Virus record (IMG/VR): IMGVR_UViG_3300025413_001414
Span: 1 to 64,000 of that record
Origin: a virus
DNA length: 64,000 bases
Reading direction: 5' to 3' (one strand)
Below, piece by piece: positions 3,894 to 62,104 of the stretch (position 1 is the stretch's first letter; each line of letters starts with the position of its first letter). The position numbers and the translations under genes are program-made. A model generated the notes under the pieces. The model was not told where the DNA came from. It saw only the letters and a program-made list of their open reading frames with translations, and did not search any database.

Positions 3894-5501
3894 TTAACTT
3901 TGGATTTTGTTTTTATATAAAAATAGTTTGTTACCACTATTATATATTTTTAAATATTTTAATTTTTTAAGTATTTCATTTTCAGTTAGATTTGGATCGT
4001 GACCCATTTTAGTTAAATTTTGCTTTCTCATTGAAAATCTATTTTTCCTATCAAAATTTTTAACATAGAAGTATCCAGGTTTTGTGAATTTTTCAAATTC
4101 AAATCCAAGTTTAATATATAATTTACCAGATGAATAATCATTATTAGAATATGATATAATATTATCAAATTTATAACTAGATATGAAATATTTAAATAGC
4201 TTAGAAGCTCCACCAACTATATTATATCCAATTTTATTACAAAATCTTATTAACTCATAATCACTGTCATTACCATTTTTATTTCCAAGTGATAATCTCT
4301 TTTTTCCAAATGTCATTATAGAAACTAATTCGTCTTTATAGAAGAGTCCAATATTTATTTTAGACACACACCAACCTTGAATGTGATTATTATTGATAAA
4401 ATTTTTAACTAATTTAAAATCCTTTACTTCTTTAATAACACACTTTCTAGCAAAAATTTTATTTGGTGTTTTCCCCAGCTTATTCAATATCATTGATCTA
4501 ACTATTTCATTTTTATTCTTCCAATCATCTTCCCATATCTGAAAAAGATCTATTCCTATTTCAGAACATCTTTTAAATTTATCATAGTGGTAATTCTTAT
4601 CTTTCCAATTTGTAGAATGCCAGTAAACACCATTTAATTCAATTGCTAATTTTTTATCATCTATAAAATAATCTAATTCTAGATTATTTAGAACTTTTCT
4701 ATTTTTGATTTCATATTGAATATTACTTTCATTCAATAAAAATGAAATTTCCTTTTCTGGATAAGATGAGTATATTGGAAAACAAATTGTACATATTACT
4801 TTTTTATTCAAAATTCGTTCCCTTAGAATGTTATTATTTATGACAAAACTATTTCCACAAAAATTACAATCACATATATATCCTTTATTATCATATCCAG
4901 TTATTTTCACTATATAAGAATATTTTTCCTTTATCTGATTTAACGAATCAGATAATCTATTTTTTAATATTTTTTCCCTATCTACTAACTCAAATGGATT
5001 CTCAACTCCATATTTCATCATACAGGTGTTTCTTATCCTTTCTTTTATTTCTTTATTCTTTATAGCAGAATCAACTCCATAAATTTCAATCATTGATTTT
5101 TTAATCTTATCTTTTATTAAATCATTTTTTACTGGGTGCCCTCCATATTTTTTTTTATTAGTTTCTATTATTTTTTTCTTGATCAAGTCCAATTCAAATA
5201 TGTTTTTAACACCATATTTATCTATATTATGATTATTTCTCTTGATGATGGAACACTTTTCAGAGCAACAATATATATCAATCATATCATTTGTATTTAT
5301 TAGATAATTTTCCCATTTTATAGACTTTGTATTGCCGCATATGTCACATCTAACATTTATATAAAAATTTCCCTTTTTAAATGGATAATCAATAGGTGAT
5401 ACTTTTATAAAATCTCCTAATTTTATATCAACTTTTTTAGTTCTCAAATATGATATATTTCTAGTAGAAGCTTTTATACATATCTCATTATCAATTATCA
5501 T
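3894..5501 (-). CDS. KYGV-repeat homing endonuclease, paralogue 1
   Basis: This 535-residue protein has an N-terminal zinc-ribbon-like part (CDICG, later CCSEKC), then roughly 25-residue repeats with the core KYGV (IYGVDSA, KYGVENPFEL), then a C-terminal nuclease-like domain. The nuclease segment has the line ELDYFIDDKK...IELNGVYWHS followed by YHYDKFKRC...QIWEDDW, like a Vsr/PD-(D/E)XK-type fold. Three more copies of this architecture are in the window (34713, 47181, 60275). The start overlaps the stop of the baseplate gene as TAATG, so the element sits exactly at that gene's end and is probably translationally coupled to it. The free-standing homing role is an inference from family and context. 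Confidence 0.8.
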   Translation of the reverse strand: MIIDNEICIKASTRNISYLRTKKVDIKLGDFIKVSPIDYPFKKGNFYINVRCDICGNTKSIKWENYLINTNDMIDIYCCSEKCSIIKRNNHNIDKYGVKNIFELDLIKKKIIETNKKKYGGHPVKNDLIKDKIKKSMIEIYGVDSAIKNKEIKERIRNTCMMKYGVENPFELVDREKILKNRLSDSLNQIKEKYSYIVKITGYDNKGYICDCNFCGNSFVINNNILRERILNKKVICTICFPIYSSYPEKEISFLLNESNIQYEIKNRKVLNNLELDYFIDDKKLAIELNGVYWHSTNWKDKNYHYDKFKRCSEIGIDLFQIWEDDWKNKNEIVRSMILNKLGKTPNKIFARKCVIKEVKDFKLVKNFINNNHIQGWCVSKINIGLFYKDELVSIMTFGKKRLSLGNKNGNDSDYELIRFCNKIGYNIVGGASKLFKYFISSYKFDNIISYSNNDYSSGKLYIKLGFEFEKFTKPGYFYVKNFDRKNRFSMRKQNLTKMGHDPNLTENEILKKLKYLKIYNSGNKLFLYKNKIQS

Positions 5502-8709: not shown

Positions 8710-10713
8710 ATGGCAAACGTTTTTCAGAAATTCCTAAACTGGTTCAAAACCGAAGAAAAAGAAATAGAACAAGTATTTGTAGGTAAAAGTAAAATTGGTA
8801 GAAAGTACACTTGGAAGCCAGACACACCTGACTTTAGAGATTTAAATTACACCGTAGCTAACACTAAGTTACCAAAGTCAGTAGACTTAACAAGTGGTAA
8901 TCCTAATGTGTATGATCAAGGTCAATTAGGTAGTTGTTTTTCAGGAGAAACAAAAATTCCTTTATTAAATGGTGAAGTAAAAACAATAGAAGAATTATAT
9001 AATGAAGGAGAAGAATTTTGGGTTTTTTCTTTGGATGAAAATGGATCATTAGTTGCAGGTAAAGCAAAATCAAATTTAACAGGAATAGATAAAGAGGTTA
9101 TAGAAGTCACATTAGATAATGGAAGTTCTATAATTTGCACACCAGATCACAAATTTATGATGAGGGATGGGACTTTTAAAAAAGTTAGCGAAATAGATTT
9201 TTCAGAATCATTAATGCCTAATAATTTAAAAATTCATTCTAGTGGATATTATCAATATTTTGATAATTTTACTAATAAATGGACATTTGTACATTCCTCT
9301 ATAAATAAGACATTTAATTCAGAATATAAAAAAATTGTCGAAAATAGAATAATCGATAAAGGAGATAGATTTTTAGTAACACATCATAAAAATTTTAATA
9401 AAATGGATAATACTCCCGAAAATCTAGAATGGATGGGTGAATTGGAACATCAATTATATCACAAAACTACATGGAATGGAACAGAGGCTCAGAGGGATCA
9501 TTCTAGAAAACTAATTAATAAAATGTATGAAAATAATCCAAATTGGAACGAAGGGGCATCTTCAATTGGTGGTAAAAAAACCTGGGAATTAGCCAAAAAT
9601 GATCCAGAAAGAATGGAAAAAATTAATAAGTGGAAAAAAGCTGGTCATTCTGATGAATCAAGAAAAAAAGCTAACATATCTCATAAAAAGAAATTCGAAG
9701 ATCCAGTTTTTATGAATAATTTTAAAAAAATTATGAAAAATAAAACTGATAAATATTTATCATTTGAGGAAAATAGAAATAAGTTATCAGAACTTGGTAG
9801 ACAAAATTTGGGAACAAATACAACTAAAAATATGATAATTAAATGGTCTAGAGAATTATTAGACGAAAAAAAAGAAATAAATGAGGAAAATTGGAATGAA
9901 CTCAAGAAAAAAAGTGAATTAAAAAATTTTTATAATTTTTCCACAATTAAAAAGTTCTTTAGTTCAATAGAAGAAGTAAATGAATTAGCATTAAATTATA
10001 ATCACAAAATTATCAATAAAAGAACTATTAATGAAAAAATTAATGTTTATTGTTTAGAAGTTGAAAAGTATCATAACTTTGCCTTAGAATCTGGTGTATT
10101 TGTGCATAATTGTACTGCTAACTCTCTTTCAGGTGCATTTGATTTTGAAAGAATTAAACAAAAATTAGCACCTATTGGACCATCAAGATTATTCATTTAT
10201 TACAATGAAAGATTAATGGAAGGTTCTGTTAATTCGGATTCCGGAGCTCAAATTAGAGATGGTATCAAAGTTCTTGCTTCTCAAGGAGTTTGTCCTGAAA
10301 CTGAATGGCCTTATAACACTGGTCAATTTAAAGTAAAACCAAATGATAAGTGTTATCAAGATGCTAAATCTAATACTATTAAACAATATCTTAGATTAGA
10401 TAATACAAACCTTACTTTATTGAAAACATGTTTATCCCAAGGATATACCTTTGTATTTGGATTTACAGTTTATGAATCATTTGAAGGTGAGGAAGTAGCA
10501 CAAACTGGTATAGTTCCAATGCCAAGTCCTAATGAACAATGTATGGGTGGTCACGCTGTTTATTGTATGGGATATGATGATAGTAAAAAAGCATTCAAAG
10601 TTAGAAATTCTTGGGGAACTGGCTGGGGTGACGGTGGTAATTTTTGGTTACCATATGAATATATGACCAATCCTAATTTAGCAAGTGATTTCTGGACAAT
10701 TAGATTAGTATAA
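8710..10713 (+). CDS. Papain-family (C1A) cysteine protease precursor containing an intein
   Basis: The 667-residue precursor has an extein of about 275 residues. YDQGQLGS (68-75) is followed, after the intein, by CTANSLSGAF (468-477), together forming the papain catalytic-cysteine motif. The histone of the triad lies in MGGHAV (His615) and the asparagine in RNSWGTGWG (Asn633). The intein (76-467) thus separates the catalytic Cys468 from its N-terminal half, so the protease can be active only after splicing. The N-terminus lacks a secretion signal. A role in head or tail maturation or in attacking host proteins is possible but not shown. A strong terminator follows. Confidence 0.9.
   Translation: MANVFQKFLNWFKTEEKEIEQVFVGKSKIGRKYTWKPDTPDFRDLNYTVANTKLPKSVDLTSGNPNVYDQGQLGSCFSGETKIPLLNGEVKTIEELYNEGEEFWVFSLDENGSLVAGKAKSNLTGIDKEVIEVTLDNGSSIICTPDHKFMMRDGTFKKVSEIDFSESLMPNNLKIHSSGYYQYFDNFTNKWTFVHSSINKTFNSEYKKIVENRIIDKGDRFLVTHHKNFNKMDNTPENLEWMGELEHQLYHKTTWNGTEAQRDHSRKLINKMYENNPNWNEGASSIGGKKTWELAKNDPERMEKINKWKKAGHSDESRKKANISHKKKFEDPVFMNNFKKIMKNKTDKYLSFEENRNKLSELGRQNLGTNTTKNMIIKWSRELLDEKKEINEENWNELKKKSELKNFYNFSTIKKFFSSIEEVNELALNYNHKIINKRTINEKINVYCLEVEKYHNFALESGVFVHNCTANSLSGAFDFERIKQKLAPIGPSRLFIYYNERLMEGSVNSDSGAQIRDGIKVLASQGVCPETEWPYNTGQFKVKPNDKCYQDAKSNTIKQYLRLDNTNLTLLKTCLSQGYTFVFGFTVYESFEGEEVAQTGIVPMPSPNEQCMGGHAVYCMGYDDSKKAFKVRNSWGTGWGDGGNFWLPYEYMTNPNLASDFWTIRLV
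8935..10110 (+). mobile_element. Intein with HNH homing endonuclease in the protease gene
   Basis: It spans 392 residues. It begins with Cys1 (CFSGETKIPLLNGEVKTIEEL, block A), has block B with TPDH (GSSIICTPDHKFMM), and ends with VYCLEVEKYHNFALESG (block F) and VFVHN before the Cys+1 of the host protein (block G). Between the splicing blocks lies an HNH-type module (VTHHKNFNKMDNTPENLEWM), a DNA nuclease that would spread the intein. All residues needed for splicing (Cys1, TxxH, terminal Asn, Cys+1) are visible. Confidence 0.92.
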
Positions 10714-34712: not shown

Positions 34713-36440
34713 ATGCAAAACTATACATTTTTATATAATGATACAAAGTTAGACAAAAACAAACTAAAAGAGGATTGGATTAAGAAAAATGTCCCATCTT
34801 TATACAAAGATGTTATATCATTCTCAAACATGATAAACTTTGAGTATTCCAAATTTTCACAATTATTATATCATTATAAAATAAATAAGACTGAATTGCC
34901 AATATGTGACTATTGCAAAAAAGAAAATAAAAGATTTATTGGATTTGATTATGGATATAAACTAGGATGTAGTAGACATTGTGCAATTTTACTAACAAGA
35001 CCAAAGTCAAATGAAACTAGGAGATTGAACACATTAGAAAAATATGGAGTTGAACACACCACCCAACTAAATTCAGTTAAAGAAAAAATAAAAAAAACCA
35101 ACATTAAAAAGTATGGAGTAGAACATGCTTCACAGAATGAAAATATTAAAAATTCAATTAAAAAAACAAACAATATACGATATGGTACTGATTTGCCTCT
35201 TCAAAATTTACAAATTAAGAATAAAATGATTGATAACTTTATAGAAAAGTATGGTGTCAGTAACCCAATTTTACTAGATTCAGTCAAAAATAAAATTAAA
35301 AAAAATAATTTGAAAAAATATGGATGTGAATGGCACATATCTTCTGATATTATCAAACAAAAAATAAAAAATTCACAATATCTTCATAATTATAAAAATA
35401 TTGTTTCTAATTATGGTAAAATCGATGGATTAAATATAATATCATATGAAAATAATATAGTAAAATTTTATTGTGAAAAGTGTAACAATGAGTTTGAATC
35501 AAATTATGTACATCTTTATAATAGACATATCAGAGATAAATCTAATATTTGTACTATTTGCAATCCACTAAATAACAAAACATCTAATGGACAAAAAGAA
35601 ATTATAAATTTTTTAAAGGAACTAAGAATAAATATTACAGTAAATGATAGAAAAATAATAAATCCATACGAAATAGACATTTATCTAAAAGATTATAATT
35701 TAGGTATTGAGTTTAACGGCATATATTGGCACTCTGAAATAAACAAGGATAATGGCTACCATTATGATAAGTATAATAGATGCACACAAAAAGGTATTGG
35801 ACTAATTCAAATTTGGGAAGATGATTGGACATATAAAAAGGATATAATAAAGTCAGTGATAAAAAGTAGGATAAATAAGAATTCATCAATTGGTGCTAGA
35901 TTATGTATCATAAAAGTAGTTTCAAATGAAGATTCTAAAATTTTTCTAAATGAAAATCATATTCAGGGATGGTGTATTTCAAAATATAGATATGGATTAT
36001 ATTTTGAAAATAATCTAGTTAGTATATTAACAATTTCAAATAGTAGAAAAAATATTACTAAAAATGCAAAAATCGGAGAATATGAAATAGTTAGATTTTG
36101 TAATAAAATTGGAACAAATATCATTGGATCTTTATCAAAACTTTGGAAGTTTTTTGTAAATGAAATAAATCCGGTAAGAGTTATTTCATATTGTGATAAT
36201 GATCTATTTAGTGGTAAATCCTATTATAAAATAGGTATGAAATTAGATAGTATGTCATTTAATTATTGGTGGTGTGATGGTGATAAAAGACAAAATAGAT
36301 GGAATTTCAGAAAAGATAAATTAATAAGTGAAGGATATGATAGAGAAAAAACTGAATCAGAAATAATGATAGAAAGAGGATGGTATAAATGTTATGGATC
36401 TGGTAATAAAAAATTTATTTGGAATAAAGATAATATTTAA
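34713..36440 (+). CDS. KYGV-repeat homing endonuclease, paralogue 2
   Basis: A 575-residue protein with an N-terminal zinc-binding part (CDYCKKEN, later CSRHC), at least five KYGV-type repeats between about 105 and 215 (KYGVEHTTQL, KYGVEHASQN, RYGTDLPLQN, KYGVSNPIL), and the nuclease segment EIDIYLKDYN-LGIEFNGIYWHSE plus QIWEDDW. It sits between the MoxR and 36497 genes in opposite orientation, so it probably inserted in the gap. A TTTAATATATA box is upstream. Confidence 0.8.
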   Translation: MQNYTFLYNDTKLDKNKLKEDWIKKNVPSLYKDVISFSNMINFEYSKFSQLLYHYKINKTELPICDYCKKENKRFIGFDYGYKLGCSRHCAILLTRPKSNETRRLNTLEKYGVEHTTQLNSVKEKIKKTNIKKYGVEHASQNENIKNSIKKTNNIRYGTDLPLQNLQIKNKMIDNFIEKYGVSNPILLDSVKNKIKKNNLKKYGCEWHISSDIIKQKIKNSQYLHNYKNIVSNYGKIDGLNIISYENNIVKFYCEKCNNEFESNYVHLYNRHIRDKSNICTICNPLNNKTSNGQKEIINFLKELRINITVNDRKIINPYEIDIYLKDYNLGIEFNGIYWHSEINKDNGYHYDKYNRCTQKGIGLIQIWEDDWTYKKDIIKSVIKSRINKNSSIGARLCIIKVVSNEDSKIFLNENHIQGWCISKYRYGLYFENNLVSILTISNSRKNITKNAKIGEYEIVRFCNKIGTNIIGSLSKLWKFFVNEINPVRVISYCDNDLFSGKSYYKIGMKLDSMSFNYWWCDGDKRQNRWNFRKDKLISEGYDREKTESEIMIERGWYKCYGSGNKKFIWNKDNI

Positions 36441-36496: not shown

Positions 36497-37132
36497 TTAT
36501 CCTTTAATAACTTCTACGTTTTTCACAGCGATTACAGGTTTAACTTCTTCTACAATATTGTAGATTTCCATATCAGCCTCTTGAGAGTAATCCTTCAGCT
36601 TATCGATTGTACCTTTAGCCACACTGAAAGAAACAACGGCTTTAACAATCTTTTCTTTATCATCTTCATCAATTTCATCACAAGCCTCAATCAATTGAGA
36701 AAGAATTTCACCATATTTATCAACCATTTCACTATCAAATGAGAAGCTCGTTTTTTCTTCAACAGCAGCTTCACCGAAGGTTTCAGTCAAATACTTAGCC
36801 CTATCTTCGTTGATAGAAATATACTTATCAGAAGGTACGAACATCATTTGAGCCGTATCCAAACCAGATTTAGCCTCCAACATGATAGAACCTGGATTTT
36901 TGCTGGTTTTATCATATACTTTAGACCACTCAACCTTACCAATTTCTTTTACTTCATCAGAAATCATATCAGCCTCGGCCTTATCACGCTTCATGTTATC
37001 TTGAAGCTCTTGAAGCTTTTGAATTTTATCGAAGAAATCAGCATCTTTCACTTTAACACGAACTTTTTCATCTTTCGCTTTAGTTGTTTTAGCGGGAGCC
37101 GACTTTTTAGCTTTTGCAAATAAATTAGCCAT
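36497..37132 (-). CDS. Hypothetical GC-richer protein (211 aa)
   Basis: A basic N-terminal stretch (AKAKKSAPAKTTKAKDEKVRVK) precedes a helical, acidic body. No motif is recognised. Codon use resembles the MoxR and VWA genes and differs from the AT-richer neighbours, and it shares their promoter class. It is preceded by the small-RNA and promoter array at 37170-37465. A role with the MoxR/VWA pair is an inference from these shared traits. Confidence 0.7.
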   Translation of the reverse strand: MANLFAKAKKSAPAKTTKAKDEKVRVKVKDADFFDKIQKLQELQDNMKRDKAEADMISDEVKEIGKVEWSKVYDKTSKNPGSIMLEAKSGLDTAQMMFVPSDKYISINEDRAKYLTETFGEAAVEEKTSFSFDSEMVDKYGEILSQLIEACDEIDEDDKEKIVKAVVSFSVAKGTIDKLKDYSQEADMEIYNIVEEVKPVIAVKNVEVIKG

Positions 37133-37200: not shown

Positions 37201-37212
37201 ATTTTTTATTTA

Positions 37213-37248
37213 GAAATGACATGCTAAATACACCATACCCTTCATTTC
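37213..37248 (-). ncRNA. Hairpin small-RNA unit 1
   Basis: The minus-strand RNA would have stem GAAATGA/TCATTTC around a conserved core (GGTATGGTGTATTTAGCATG). It is transcribed from promoter P2 and read into the leader of the 36497 gene unless processed. It is one of three copies of this hairpin; see 37356 and 37392. Confidence 0.65.
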
Positions 37249-37265
37249 TCTCGTTCTTTGTTACA

Positions 37266-37297
37266 CAAAGATACGACAAATTTCCGAAACCACCAAA
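37266..37297 (-). promoter_or_regulatory. Extended host-like promoter P2
   Basis: The minus strand reads TTTGGTGGTTTC (37286-37297), 12 bases, TATCTTTG (37266-37273). It would produce a transcript starting about 15 bases before hairpin unit 1. Confidence 0.85.
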
Positions 37298-37299
37298 TA

Positions 37300-37327
37300 A
37301 AAATTCCCCTCGTATAGAGAGGAATTC
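37300..37327 (-). terminator. Terminator of the two-hairpin small RNA
   Basis: On the minus strand AATTCCTCTC pairs with GAGGGGAATT and is followed by a T-run. One pair is U-G only in this orientation, which supports minus-strand use. Confidence 0.75.
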
Positions 37328-37429
37328 TTATACCAAAACAAACAGTTATGAGACTAAAGTGACGTGCCAGATACACTATACCTTTCACTTTGTAAATGAC
37401 GTGCCAGATACACTATACCTTTCATTTAC
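37300..37429 (-). ncRNA. Small RNA gene with two tandem hairpin units
   Basis: From promoter P3 the expected start falls at the first base of hairpin unit 3 (37392-37429, stem GTAAATGA/TCATTTAC). Unit 2 (37356-37391, stem AAAGTGA/TCACTTT) follows at once, and the terminator 37300-37327 ends the transcript, giving an RNA of about 130 nt. The core GGTATAGTGTATCTGGCACG is identical in both units, while the stems differ by compensated changes. No protein frame is plausible. I know no RNA family with this core. Confidence 0.75.
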
Positions 37430-37433
37430 AATA

Positions 37434-37465
37434 CAAAGATACAGCAAGATTTTGTAACCACCAAA
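37434..37465 (-). promoter_or_regulatory. Extended host-like promoter P3
   Basis: The minus strand reads TTTGGTGGTTAC (37454-37465), 12 bases, TATCTTTG (37434-37441), directly before the tandem hairpin RNA. Confidence 0.85.
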
Positions 37466-37472
37466 TTTATTT

Positions 37473-38108
37473 TTATTCAAACCAAGTCACTTTTCCAGTA
37501 AGAATATCATATACAGATCCAACTACTCTTACTTGATTTGTATTTACAAGATTATTAATAACTGGTTTAGAATTTTTGAGACTATCTACATTTGAAGTTA
37601 CATTACATTTGATTGCTTCATAAATAAAATTACTATCAGTCTTTTTAACTTTCTTAGTAGATTGTTGAATTTTCTCAATAAGAACTTGAATATGATTGTC
37701 AAACTTACTATTTGAGTTGACCGCTGCAGTAACCGCACCACAACTAGTATGGCCCATTATAACAATTAGATTAGTATGTAGATTCAAAATAGCATACTCT
37801 ATACTTGATAAGTTATCATCATTTATAACATTGCCAGCAACTCTAATTACAAAAAGTTCTCCAAGACCTTTATTAAATATTATTTCTGGAGAAACTCTTG
37901 AGTCAGCGCAAGTAATAATAACAGCTTTAGGATTTTGACCTTTAGATAAAAAAAGTCTGGTTAACGAATCTCGATTTTTACTGCTAAATAATCCAGAAGT
38001 ATATTCATTATTTCCAGATTTTAACCAAGTTAGAAGTGAATCATTTTTAGATTGTGAGAAACTTAAATTACTAATTAAAAGTAATAAAATAAGGATAAAA
38101 TTTTTCAT
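37473..38108 (-). CDS. Exported beta-class carbonic anhydrase
   Basis: A 211-residue protein with a signal peptide (1-19, ending SFSQ). The beta-carbonic-anhydrase zinc ligands are Cys67 in ITCADSRVSPE, His120 and Cys123 in MGHTSCGAV, with the Asp69-Arg71 pair present. The enzyme interconverts CO2 and bicarbonate, here in the periplasm. I know of no established role for it in phages. It may alter host envelope pH or carbon supply during infection. All catalytic residues are intact, so it is probably active. Confidence 0.92.
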   Translation of the reverse strand: MKNFILILLLLISNLSFSQSKNDSLLTWLKSGNNEYTSGLFSSKNRDSLTRLFLSKGQNPKAVIITCADSRVSPEIIFNKGLGELFVIRVAGNVINDDNLSSIEYAILNLHTNLIVIMGHTSCGAVTAAVNSNSKFDNHIQVLIEKIQQSTKKVKKTDSNFIYEAIKCNVTSNVDSLKNSKPVINNLVNTNQVRVVGSVYDILTGKVTWFE

Positions 38109-47180: not shown

Positions 47181-49016
47181 ATGGTATTAGATAAAAAAAT
47201 AAAAGTTAAAATAAACAAAAAAAATATTTCACATTATATTCAATTTTATCCATCAATAAAATTAAAGGATATTATTGAGGTTGATGTTGAGAATCATTTA
47301 ATGAAAGGAAGTAATCAAAAAATAAACGTCCAATGTGATATCTGTGGAATTGCTAGGTTTATAAATTTCCAATCATATAATATTAATTTAAATTCTTGCC
47401 CGGAATATCCAATTTATACTTGTGATAAATGTTCTCATATTAAAATAAAAGAGTATAATAAGAAAAAATATGGCGTAGAATATTATTCAAAAACTAAGGA
47501 ATATTCAGAAAAGTTTAAGAGTACAATGATTGAAAAATATGGAGTAGAATATGCTTTACAAAGTGATGAATTAAAAAAAAGGCAAATAAATAATAATTTA
47601 GAAAAATATGGTAAAAAAAATGTTTTTCAAGTTGATAAAATTAAAGATAAAATTAAAGAGTATAATAAGGAGAAATATGGTGTAGAACATTATTCAAAAA
47701 CTAAGGAATATTCAGAAAAGTTTAAGAACATAATGATTGAAAAACATGGGGTTGAAAGTCCACTTCAAGGTGGGAGTGTCTCAAGAGAAAAGGCTAAAAA
47801 TACGATGTTAAATAAATATGGAGTTGATGTATATGCAAAAAGTAGTGAATTTTTAGAAAAGGTTAAAATAACCAATATGAAAAAATATGGAGTTGAGTGG
47901 ATAATGAAATCAGATATTTTTAAAGACAAAAGCAAAAAATCTATTAAAAATAGATATGGTGTTGATAATATAGCTAAATACGAGAAGCATAGAAAGGATT
48001 TTAAAATATCTAACGATCCAAATTATATAAAATATGTAAACGAAGGCATATCGCTATTAAAATGTAACAAAGGACATGAATTTGAGATACCATCACATAT
48101 CTATTATAATAGAAGTAAATATAAAATAAATTTATGTACAATGTGTAATCCAGTTGGCGAAAGTTCATCTATAAAGGAAAACGAACTATTTGATTTTATA
48201 TGCAATAACTATAGAGGAGAAATAATAAATTCATATAGGGATAAAAAGGAAATTGATATTTATTTACCAGAATTAAAATTAGGATTTGAATTTAATGGAT
48301 TATTCTGGCATTCAGAATTATATAAGGAAAAAAACTATCACTTAGATAAAACAATTTTATTTAAGGACAAAGGTATAAGCTTATTTCATGTATGGGAGGA
48401 TGATTGGATGTATAAACAGGATATAGTTAAATCGATGATTTTAAACAAATTAGGTGAAACTCCTAGTAGAATATTTGCTAGAAAATGTGAAATTAAAGAA
48501 GTTACTGATAGTAAATTAGTTAGATATTTCCTAAATAAAAATCATATTCAAGGATTTGTTGGATCAAAAATAAAATTAGGGTTATATTATAATGACGAAT
48601 TAGTTAGCTTAATGACATTCGGTAATTTACGAAGATCTTTAGGCCAAAAAAGCAGTGAAGGATCATATGAATTATTAAGATTCTGCAACAAATTAAATAC
48701 CAATGTTATTGGTGGTGCTTCTAAATTACTCAAATATTTTTTAAAATTTAATAATGTCAGGGAAATTATTAGTTATAGTGATTTAAGTAGATCTAATGGT
48801 AATATGTATCAACAATTAGGATTTAAATTACAACATAATTCTAATCCTAATTATTATTACATTATTGGTGGTATTAGAAAACATAGATTTGGATTTAGAA
48901 AAGATGAATTAGTTAAGGATGGATTTGATCCGAATAAAACTGAAATTCAAATAATGAATGAAAGAGGTTATTATAGGATTTTTGATTGTGGAATGCAAAA
49001 ATGGGTATTAAATTAG
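47181..49016 (+). CDS. KYGV-repeat homing endonuclease, paralogue 3
   Basis: A 611-residue protein with N-terminal zinc ligands (CDICGIARF, CDKCSH), about eight KYGV units between 95 and 275 (KKYGVEYYSKT, EKYGVEYALQS, EKYGKKNVFQV), then the nuclease signature EIDIYLPELK-LGFEFNGLFWHSE and HVWEDDW. Two repeat blocks (EYSEKFK, KYGVE-YYSKTK) are nearly identical within the protein, showing recent internal duplication. It fills the gap between divergently placed minus-strand operons. Confidence 0.8.
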   Translation: MVLDKKIKVKINKKNISHYIQFYPSIKLKDIIEVDVENHLMKGSNQKINVQCDICGIARFINFQSYNINLNSCPEYPIYTCDKCSHIKIKEYNKKKYGVEYYSKTKEYSEKFKSTMIEKYGVEYALQSDELKKRQINNNLEKYGKKNVFQVDKIKDKIKEYNKEKYGVEHYSKTKEYSEKFKNIMIEKHGVESPLQGGSVSREKAKNTMLNKYGVDVYAKSSEFLEKVKITNMKKYGVEWIMKSDIFKDKSKKSIKNRYGVDNIAKYEKHRKDFKISNDPNYIKYVNEGISLLKCNKGHEFEIPSHIYYNRSKYKINLCTMCNPVGESSSIKENELFDFICNNYRGEIINSYRDKKEIDIYLPELKLGFEFNGLFWHSELYKEKNYHLDKTILFKDKGISLFHVWEDDWMYKQDIVKSMILNKLGETPSRIFARKCEIKEVTDSKLVRYFLNKNHIQGFVGSKIKLGLYYNDELVSLMTFGNLRRSLGQKSSEGSYELLRFCNKLNTNVIGGASKLLKYFLKFNNVREIISYSDLSRSNGNMYQQLGFKLQHNSNPNYYYIIGGIRKHRFGFRKDELVKDGFDPNKTEIQIMNERGYYRIFDCGMQKWVLN

Positions 49017-49407: not shown

Positions 49408-49439
49408 CAAAGATACTAAACTTTTTTGAAACCACCAAA
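49408..49439 (-). promoter_or_regulatory. Extended host-like promoter inside an upstream coding end
   Basis: TTTGGTGGTTTC (49428-49439), 12 bases, TATCTTTG (49408-49415). The first box encodes the FGGF of the EFGGFKKV tail of the membrane protein. Confidence 0.82.
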
Positions 49440-60274: not shown

Positions 60275-62104
60275 ATGATAGTAAATGAAAAAATAAGTAT
60301 AAATGTTAATCCAAATTCTAGAATTTATTACAATTCGATTGGATATAGATGTTCTAATTTTGAGAAAATAGAAATTAGAACAATTGATCTACCAAATGGG
60401 TCTAATATTAAAATATTGGTCAGGTGTGATGTTTGTTTTATTGATCAAACAACTAAGTACAATAAATACTTGAAAAACACAAGGAATAATACTATTCTAT
60501 ACACCTGCAAAAAATGTTCTTTTATAAAAAATAAAAAAACAAAATTAGAAAAATACGGAAATGAAAATTATCAGAATACAGAAAAAATAAAGAAGACAAA
60601 ATTAGAAAAATACGGAGACGAAAACTATACAAATAGAATAAAAGCGAAAAATACATGTATAGAAAAATATGGAGTTGATAATGTATCAAAGTTTGATGAT
60701 ATAAAGTTAACTAAAAAGAAAACAAATATTGATAATTGGGGAGTTGATAATGTTTTTAAATCTGAAGAAATTAAGAGTAAAATATCAGAATCGGTTAGAA
60801 TTAAATATGGATCAGATAATTATGTTACATCAGATGATTGTAAAAATAAGTATAAAATATTCTGTGAGGAATTAGGTGTTAGTCATTATTCACAGTCTAA
60901 AGAATTTAAAGATAAATTTGAGGAAACATGTTTAGTAAGCTGGGGATATAAGACGAATTTATTAAATAATGATATAAAAAATAAGATAAAGGAGACCAAT
61001 CTTATAAAGTATGGATTTGAGTATCATATGAAAAATGCAAAATATTCAGAATTAACATCAAAAAGAATAACAGAGGGCAGAAATGATTATTATAAAGTAT
61101 TAGGATATGAATTGATAAATTATGATTTTAATAAAAAGGAATATCTACTTAAAAGTATTTCATGTGGTCATGAATTTAAAATAAATCATGATTTATTTAG
61201 AAGTAGGATAAAATATAACAACAGTTCTTGTTTGATATGCTATCCAAAAGATGGGTTAACATCAATAAAAGAATTAGAGCTTGGTAACTTTATTAAAGAA
61301 ATATCAAATAATATTATATTAAACTCAAGAGACTTGATTGATGGTAAGGAAATAGATATTTATTTACCAGATCATAAGATAGGAATAGAATTTAATGGAT
61401 TATACTGGCATTCGGATGAATTTAAAGATAAATATTATCATTATAATAAAACAAAATCCTGTTTAGAAAATGGAATATCCTTAATTCATATATGGGAGGA
61501 TGACTGGTTAAATAAAAAAGATATAGTTAAATCAATAATTAAAAACAGATTAGGAATAATTGATAATAGAATATATGCCAGAAAATGTAAAATTGAAATT
61601 GTTACAAACTCAATTAGTAATAAGTTTTTAGACGAAAATCACATTCAAGGTGGGACAAATGCTTCTGTTTGTATTTCATTAAAATATGAAAATGAAATAG
61701 TATCTATAATGACATTTGGTAAAAGAAGAATAAACTCTAAATTGAACCTGGAACTTGTTAGATTTTGTAATAAGAAAAATACATCAGTCATCGGATCGGC
61801 TTCTAAATTATTCAAACACTTTATTGAAAATAACGAATACGATAAAATAACATCATATTCAGATTTGTCCATTTTTAATGGAGATTTATATGAAAGTCTT
61901 GGATTCAAAAATGACGGCGAAACATCTTTAAATTACTATTGGAGCGATTTAAAAAGAAGATATCATAGATTTAATTTTAACAAAAAGAGACTAATAAAAA
62001 TAGGATATGATCCAAATAAGACCGAAGATGAAATTATGAAGAGCATTGGATATATTAAAATATGGTCTTGTGGTCAGGTAAGGTGGATTTTTAATAAGAT
62101 ATAA
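60275..62104 (+). CDS. KYGV-repeat homing endonuclease, paralogue 4
   Basis: A 609-residue protein with zinc ligands near the N-terminus (RCDVCF, CKKCSF), seven repeat units from about 90 to 260 (LEKYGNENYQN, IEKYGVDNVSK, NWGVDNVFKS), and the nuclease segment EIDIYLPDHK-IGIEFNGLYWHSD followed by HIWEDDW. It lies between the two topoisomerase subunit genes, a classic site for mobile elements in T4-like phages. A TTTAATATATATA box is just upstream. Confidence 0.8.
   Translation: MIVNEKISINVNPNSRIYYNSIGYRCSNFEKIEIRTIDLPNGSNIKILVRCDVCFIDQTTKYNKYLKNTRNNTILYTCKKCSFIKNKKTKLEKYGNENYQNTEKIKKTKLEKYGDENYTNRIKAKNTCIEKYGVDNVSKFDDIKLTKKKTNIDNWGVDNVFKSEEIKSKISESVRIKYGSDNYVTSDDCKNKYKIFCEELGVSHYSQSKEFKDKFEETCLVSWGYKTNLLNNDIKNKIKETNLIKYGFEYHMKNAKYSELTSKRITEGRNDYYKVLGYELINYDFNKKEYLLKSISCGHEFKINHDLFRSRIKYNNSSCLICYPKDGLTSIKELELGNFIKEISNNIILNSRDLIDGKEIDIYLPDHKIGIEFNGLYWHSDEFKDKYYHYNKTKSCLENGISLIHIWEDDWLNKKDIVKSIIKNRLGIIDNRIYARKCKIEIVTNSISNKFLDENHIQGGTNASVCISLKYENEIVSIMTFGKRRINSKLNLELVRFCNKKNTSVIGSASKLFKHFIENNEYDKITSYSDLSIFNGDLYESLGFKNDGETSLNYYWSDLKRRYHRFNFNKKRLIKIGYDPNKTEDEIMKSIGYIKIWSCGQVRWIFNKI

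Follow-up and report, generated by a model that had tools for sequence, protein, structure and literature searches.

Promoter-linked hairpins with a conserved loop in a phage genome fragment, and a hairpin family of like architecture heading GOLLD RNAs and tRNA arrays in its relatives

In HK022 put, lambda nut and the rrn leader, a structured RNA is made soon after the promoter and heads a long transcript, and put has been described as a cis-element (PMC9378689). ToxI units are 36-nt pseudoknots (PMC3475682), and Racrs are short phage RNAs that copy the host CRISPR repeat, often as single repeats placed directly after a promoter (PMC10651486). GOLLD RNA (RF02032) and large tRNA arrays stand out among the features of huge phages and are some of the least understood of them. 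Sponge RNAs of the CsrB/RsmZ type present one loop motif on several hairpins with differing stems, an organization that suits protein titration; CsrA is not known from Bacteroidota.

The hairpins reported here share with put, nut and the rrn leader their place close behind a promoter and, by analogy, the untranslated operons (tRNA, GOLLD) that such hairpins head in related phages might profit from antitermination. No sequence likeness to these leaders is known, however, and the stand-alone copies of the hairpin are themselves terminated. With pseudo-ToxI and ToxI they have in common that they are phage-borne tandem units of 36-37 nt, known in our case from sequence, but they are simple large-loop hairpins, no toxin gene was recognised nearby (the neighbouring proteins tested are not toxins by Pfam or PHROG) and Rfam returned no match. 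Unlike Racrs, they vary in their stems, and a degenerate exact-core scan of 84,980 genomes yielded just two matches, both inside coding genes and neither of them array-like. The loop, of about 15-20 nt, bears no resemblance to the GGA motif of CsrB/RsmZ. GOLLD RNA has a different kind of connection to the hairpins: in relatives, modules of this architecture head it on the same strand, 5' of the Rfam model, and they also occur where GOLLD is absent; in the window, Rfam at the gathering threshold found no GOLLD match.

The window is the whole stretch of DNA that was analysed, 64,000 nt (64 kb) of a 78.7-kb IMG/VR fragment. The initial annotation had described three hairpins in it with a conserved core and compensated stems, and such hairpins are real and confirmed at this locus. 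All elements lie on the minus strand, a point absent from that annotation (Table 1). P1 is followed by hairpins A and B and an intrinsic terminator; farther downstream come P2, hairpin C and P3, and last a gene for a 211-aa protein. The 20-nt core GGTATAGTGTATCTGGCACG occurs exactly at 37363-37382 and 37400-37419 and as the variant GGTATGGTGTATTTAGCATG at 37220-37239, in each case on the minus strand; these three copies are all that the 78.7-kb record holds. Chance would give 0.01 such matches at up to three mismatches. The loops of A and B are 22 nt long and identical, and that of C departs from them by five substitutions, every one a transition. Across the three copies, 3 of the 10 stem pairs have changed on both sides, and the true stem register has 83% of its cells paired, compared with 37-50% in slid registers. 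Folding z-scores for the single hairpins reach only -1.9 to -2.6; since these are modest, the case for the hairpins is built on compensation and context, not on energy.

Table 1. Features of the promoter-hairpin locus (window coordinates).
Feature	Position	Strand	Details
Promoter P1	37434..37465	-	TTTGG 37465-37461; -7 box TATCTTTG 37441-37434
Hairpin A	37390..37431	-	Stem of up to 10 bp, UUGUAAAUGA/UCAUUUACAA; loop AAGGUAUAGUGUAUCUGGCACG 37421-37400
Hairpin B	37356..37391	-	Stem AAAGUGA/UCACUUU; loop 37384-37363, same as A
Intrinsic terminator	37297..37331	-	15-bp stem and U-run; predicted from folding to close the P1 RNA
Promoter P2	37266..37297	-	TTTGG 37297-37293; -7 box TATCTTTG 37273-37266
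Hairpin C	37212..37249	-	Stem AGAAAUGA/UCAUUUCU; loop AGGGUAUGGUGUAUUUAGCAUG 37241-37220
Promoter P3	37170..37201	-	AGGTGG region; -7 box TATCTTTG 37177-37170
211-aa phage protein gene	36497..37132	-	Predicted to be read from P3 and also from P2 via hairpin C

The promoters are of the Bacteroidota type, with TTTGGTGGTT or AGGTGGTTT upstream followed by TATCTTTG, and their type makes a Bacteroidota host probable; one further promoter of equal quality lies in the window, at 49415. The independent terminated RNA postulated in the initial annotation is upheld as a prediction from promoter and folding: the unit P1-A-B-terminator would give an RNA of about 135 nt, running from about 37431 to the terminator end near 37297. 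The 133-nt P1 RNA has a folding z of -4.2, largely because of its terminator. Also as previously suggested, the third copy has a promoter of its own, P2, upstream of hairpin C. This hairpin is flanked by the tandem promoters P2 and P3, and no U-run follows it.

Exact and degenerate scans of IMG/VR for the window core gave matches only within genes or lacking stems, and among phages and plasmids a blast search with the locus found just promoter-like or chance matches. Rfam 15 returned nothing for the whole window at the gathering threshold, nor for the 331-base locus at E-values up to 10, in agreement with the earlier statement that the core belongs to no known family. Within the IMG/VR and Rfam searches, the window core thus appears only in this phage. 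The literature search turned up no paper on these hairpins. The RbpB/FopS sRNAs of Bacteroides were considered as candidates and rejected, as both their sequence and their structure differ from those of the window hairpins.

The gene immediately downstream of the locus encodes the 211-aa protein, and not MoxR or VWA, which is a second point that the initial annotation did not contain. This protein has no Pfam, PHROG or PDB fold match and is conserved among huge phages; its AlphaFold model has a pLDDT of 81, and the BFVD matches of the model are uncharacterised phage proteins only. The 211-aa and MoxR-like genes are closest to those of the uncultured phages LR745206 and LR756502 (634-642 kb), at 57-70% identity, with LR756501 (735 kb) the next nearest. 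Tandem promoters are common upstream of the 211-aa orthologues, and many huge phages have them there without a clear hairpin, so that the hairpin is not required in this slot. In LR745206 (W01:521838) and in a second relative, G018 (L037/L163), the slot between the tandem promoters is nevertheless occupied by a hairpin, with the loops GGGAACGAUUCAGAUACAA and AGACAACGAUUUAGAUACAA. In another relative, G002 (L005:5880-5930, plus strand), the slot hairpin has yet a third loop, unrelated and of about 20 nt (UGAACUGGAAACAGUUAAAG).

The slot hairpins of LR745206 and G018 share the loop AGGNAACGAUUYAGAUACAA, with the conserved core AACGAUUYAGAUACAA. Searching the relatives' records with ACGATTYAGATACAA brought up more copies, including four in tandem in one record (G011), and an IMG/VR scan for the core gave at least 120 stretches. 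Among 29 distinct hairpins, changes on both sides were seen at all 10 of the 10 pairs, and the covariation score was 0.84, against 0.27 for shuffles and at most 0.25 for slid registers; these hairpins were chosen for having at least four paired positions, which inflates their pairing percentages. Among copies picked solely by their loop sequence, 29 of 31 promoter-proximal ones (within 40 nt) and 20 of 21 second copies have a stem of 6 bp or longer, compared with 11% of random sites. The corresponding figure for isolated copies of the motif, 10 of 32, is expected if many of them are chance occurrences. The spacing is rigid: the core motif follows the -7 box at 16 or 19 nt (the loop at 12 or 15 nt), and the next -7 box lies 45-51 nt beyond the core. 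Across many contigs, a 15-nt loop that hardly varies recurs on stems that do. The relatives' hairpin is a genuine, large RNA family, for which no Rfam entry and no paper was found, nor did any paper contain its core. With one base deleted, the core was also likened to the 790 loop of 16S rRNA (GAUUAGAUAC); this likeness and likenesses to CRISPR repeats were judged compatible with chance or unverifiable, and were dropped.

Two arrangements of the relatives' hairpin recur. In the first, it forms stand-alone RNAs of 85-115 nt with two loop copies, in which the first hairpin is 5'-terminal, a small middle hairpin sometimes follows, and a second hairpin with the same core, usually inside the terminator, precedes a U-run. 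These small RNAs mostly adjoin T4-like capsid genes on the opposite strand. In the second arrangement, promoter-hairpin-promoter modules head GOLLD RNAs, tRNA arrays or the 211-aa gene. The GOLLD-heading modules lie on the same strand as the RNA at 11 of 11 loci, 552-673 nt before the start of the Rfam model, and those heading tRNA arrays are found at L085, at L115, near 387.6 kb in LR745206 and at other loci. Two modules may also succeed one another before a third promoter (L112, L113, L121 and L184). At L121, L184 and L169 promoter-hairpin slots of the same kind carry an alternative loop type, AUGAAAGAUACUCGGUA. Hairpins with this loop were located upstream of GOLLD-type heads at L121:4744-4820 (plus strand), L184 near 7247 (minus), L169 near 8140 (plus) and L155 near 5108 (minus). 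At L112, L113, L116, L118, L143 and L157 the GOLLD RNA adjoins a tmRNA gene on the opposite strand, and single AACGAUUYAGAUACAA hairpins at L111, L140 and L090 lie in or beside tRNA arrays or tRNA-like sequence and have no promoter of their own.

This promoter-hairpin architecture with another loop, common in related phages and absent from the initial annotation, invites comparison with the window. In both, a 5' hairpin follows a TAnnTTTG promoter, the loop is of about 20 nt and starts with (A)AGG, and the arrangements are the same. Hairpin A begins 2 nt past the -7 box of P1 and its loop comes 12 nt after that box, as at the relatives' locus L101; hairpin B follows A, the onset of hairpin C is about 16 nt past its -7 box, and P3 lies about 42 nt beyond the loop of C (45-51 nt in relatives). 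Hairpin C sits between tandem promoters before the 211-aa gene, and A and B, together with the terminator, would make up a two-loop RNA. A part of the 5' likeness, TTTGTATTGTAAT, is also found after promoters that have no such hairpin (for example at L204), which makes that part a general promoter feature.

The differences are equally plain. The loop sequence is not the same, and the second hairpin, which in relatives is often the terminator itself, is separate from the terminator in the window. Compensated change in the variable stem affects 3 of 10 pairs in the window, compared with 10 of 10 in relatives. Even when one mismatch is allowed, the relatives' loop core is absent from the window record, and the relatives' covariance model (R1) scored the window hairpins at 11.5 and 10.7 bits, with E-values of 2.2 and 3.9 in 64 kb; in view of this failure the window hairpins were not filed as members of the family. 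Other loop types in the same slot provide a precedent for loop replacement within one architecture, and we read the window elements as a divergent or convergent version of the relatives' module, with a loop of its own and a shared architecture. The data do not support a separate loop for every phage, since no other recurrent post-promoter loop was found in LR756502, G002, G001 or part of LR745206. Most likely, the window hairpins function as those of the relatives do.

Our preferred reading, to which we assign a probability of roughly 0.45, is that the locus consists of tandem promoter-hairpin modules whose loop docks a trans-acting partner, the hairpin being a leader where it sits in cis at the 5' end and a titrator where it is supplied in trans as a small RNA. 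The first module (P1-A-B-terminator) would yield an independent non-coding RNA of about 135 nt, and the second (P2-C-P3) would give the 211-aa gene a longer transcript with a hairpin near its 5' end. The partner, for which the conserved loop would be the recognition site, is probably a protein belonging to the transcription or RNA machinery. In cis, the leader on heavily transcribed RNAs may recruit this partner in the manner of put/nut or the rrn leader, or may shield the 5' terminus; acting in trans, the small RNA that ends at the terminator would offer two loops and titrate the same partner. That the loop is kept and the stem is free, with two loops on each free RNA and one on leaders, points to a loop-binding partner. 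Since the relatives' hairpins lead untranslated GOLLD and tRNA transcripts at a fixed position, the most economical guess places it in the transcription or RNA machinery. The sequences show the promoter positions, the 5'-terminal placement, the compensated stems, the conserved loops, the terminator and the slots shared with relatives; we infer that the modules are transcribed, that they have a partner and a function, and that the two loop types are equivalent. Several findings run counter to the preferred reading: the failure of the relatives' model on the window hairpins, the 5' likeness shared with hairpin-free promoters, and the many huge phages whose tandem promoters have no hairpin. In addition, the free copies end in terminators, a poor fit for purely cis antitermination, and A and B can pair mutually rather than fold singly: in the unconstrained fold, loop A pairs with loop B at -40.3 kcal/mol, compared with -37.0 kcal/mol for the two-hairpin fold. 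In a broader and slightly more tentative proposal, the window hairpins would belong to a widespread class of 5'-terminal hairpins with exchangeable loops, present in cis at the head of GOLLD RNAs, tRNA arrays and a conserved phage gene and also as free titrating small RNAs, so that one common partner would link these abundant phage RNAs, the loop having been replaced in the window.

The main rival, which we regard as unlikely, is an antisense small RNA acting in trans. Its loop would pair with a host RNA, A and B would be twin seeds, and C would be a relic of a leader or an extra source. The five loop changes between A/B and C are all transitions, as if a fixed RNA partner had been kept through G-U pairs, and loop A is complementary to the relatives' loop over 9+2 pairs (-11.5 kcal/mol), with a p of 0.013 against dinucleotide shuffles that is weak because several loop comparisons were tried. 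For copy C, however, pairing with the relatives' loop does not exceed that of shuffles, and a target scan with the window loop in the phage's own 78.7 kb found none above shuffled loops. Self-dimerisation of the loop was not significant. The result of the target scan also bears on regulation of the MoxR/VWA group, a role put forward in the initial annotation; this was not borne out, hairpin C leading into the 211-aa gene instead.

Less likely than antisense action is a decoy for host defence, akin to pseudo-ToxI or Racr, in which the hairpin would mimic a host antitoxin RNA, a CRISPR repeat or a tRNA substrate. Phage tRNAs can counter tRNA-cleaving defences, and the related modules adjoin tRNA arrays. 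The placement of Racr single repeats has been described above, and 37-nt tandem units read from a strong promoter are akin to the repeats of pseudo-ToxI (PMC3475682). A mimic of a repeat or an antitoxin should, however, conserve the sequence of its stem too, and the stems here vary freely; the scan of 84,980 genomes returned its two coding matches only, Rfam gave no antitoxin match, and a decoy does not account for the leader copies that relatives have in front of GOLLD RNA and tRNA arrays. Of the roles suggested earlier, that of a type III antitoxin is not supported, with no toxin gene recognised beside the locus and no Rfam match, although a decoy of this type keeps the low probability given here.

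Also less likely, and ranked just behind the decoy, is a plain stabiliser of the 5' end or promoter spacer, which would block 5'-dependent decay and whose loop would have no specific partner. The hairpin, both in relatives and as window A, begins a few nt from the expected transcription start, and many copies head abundant RNAs, as such an element should; it would have no need of a near-invariant 15-nt loop on changing stems, nor of terminated stand-alone copies.

Short coding repeats, giving leader peptides or duplicated gene starts, are highly improbable: the frame ATG/GTG AAR GGT ATR GTG TAT YTR GCA YGT CAY TTN (peptide MKG[IM]VYLA[RC]H[LF]) has several synonymous differences (AAA/AAG, CTG/TTA, CAT/CAC) and ends in a stop in copy C, but it leaves the three compensated pairs unexplained, enters different downstream frames in A and B, opens in A very near the point where the RNA is expected to begin, and the same-slot hairpins of relatives lack this peptide.

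Within the libraries searched, the relatives' family, the connection of that family with GOLLD and tRNA arrays, and the loop-exchanged version in the window appear to be undescribed; this novelty applies to the module class, of which the window locus is a divergent or convergent case. If the preferred reading is true, the shared 5' module would offer a first way to learn how GOLLD RNAs and tRNA arrays are switched on and which partner takes part, and the different loop of the window could help to separate partner-binding bases from scaffold.

Some further features of the window were recorded. A beta-carbonic anhydrase gene (37473-38108, minus strand; Pfam Pro_CA, E 2.6e-41), the start of whose product resembles a signal peptide, lies directly upstream of P1, and it has no match in the relatives' records G001 and G002. 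At 8710-10713 on the plus strand, a frame of the papain-like (C1) peptidase type is apparently split by an intein-like insert (CFSGETKIPLLNG ... VHNC), judging from its translation only. Finally, four long related proteins with IEFNGxYWHS-type motifs (34713-36440, 3894-5501, 47181-49016 and 60275-62104) are probably homing endonucleases, an unusually high number for 64 kb.
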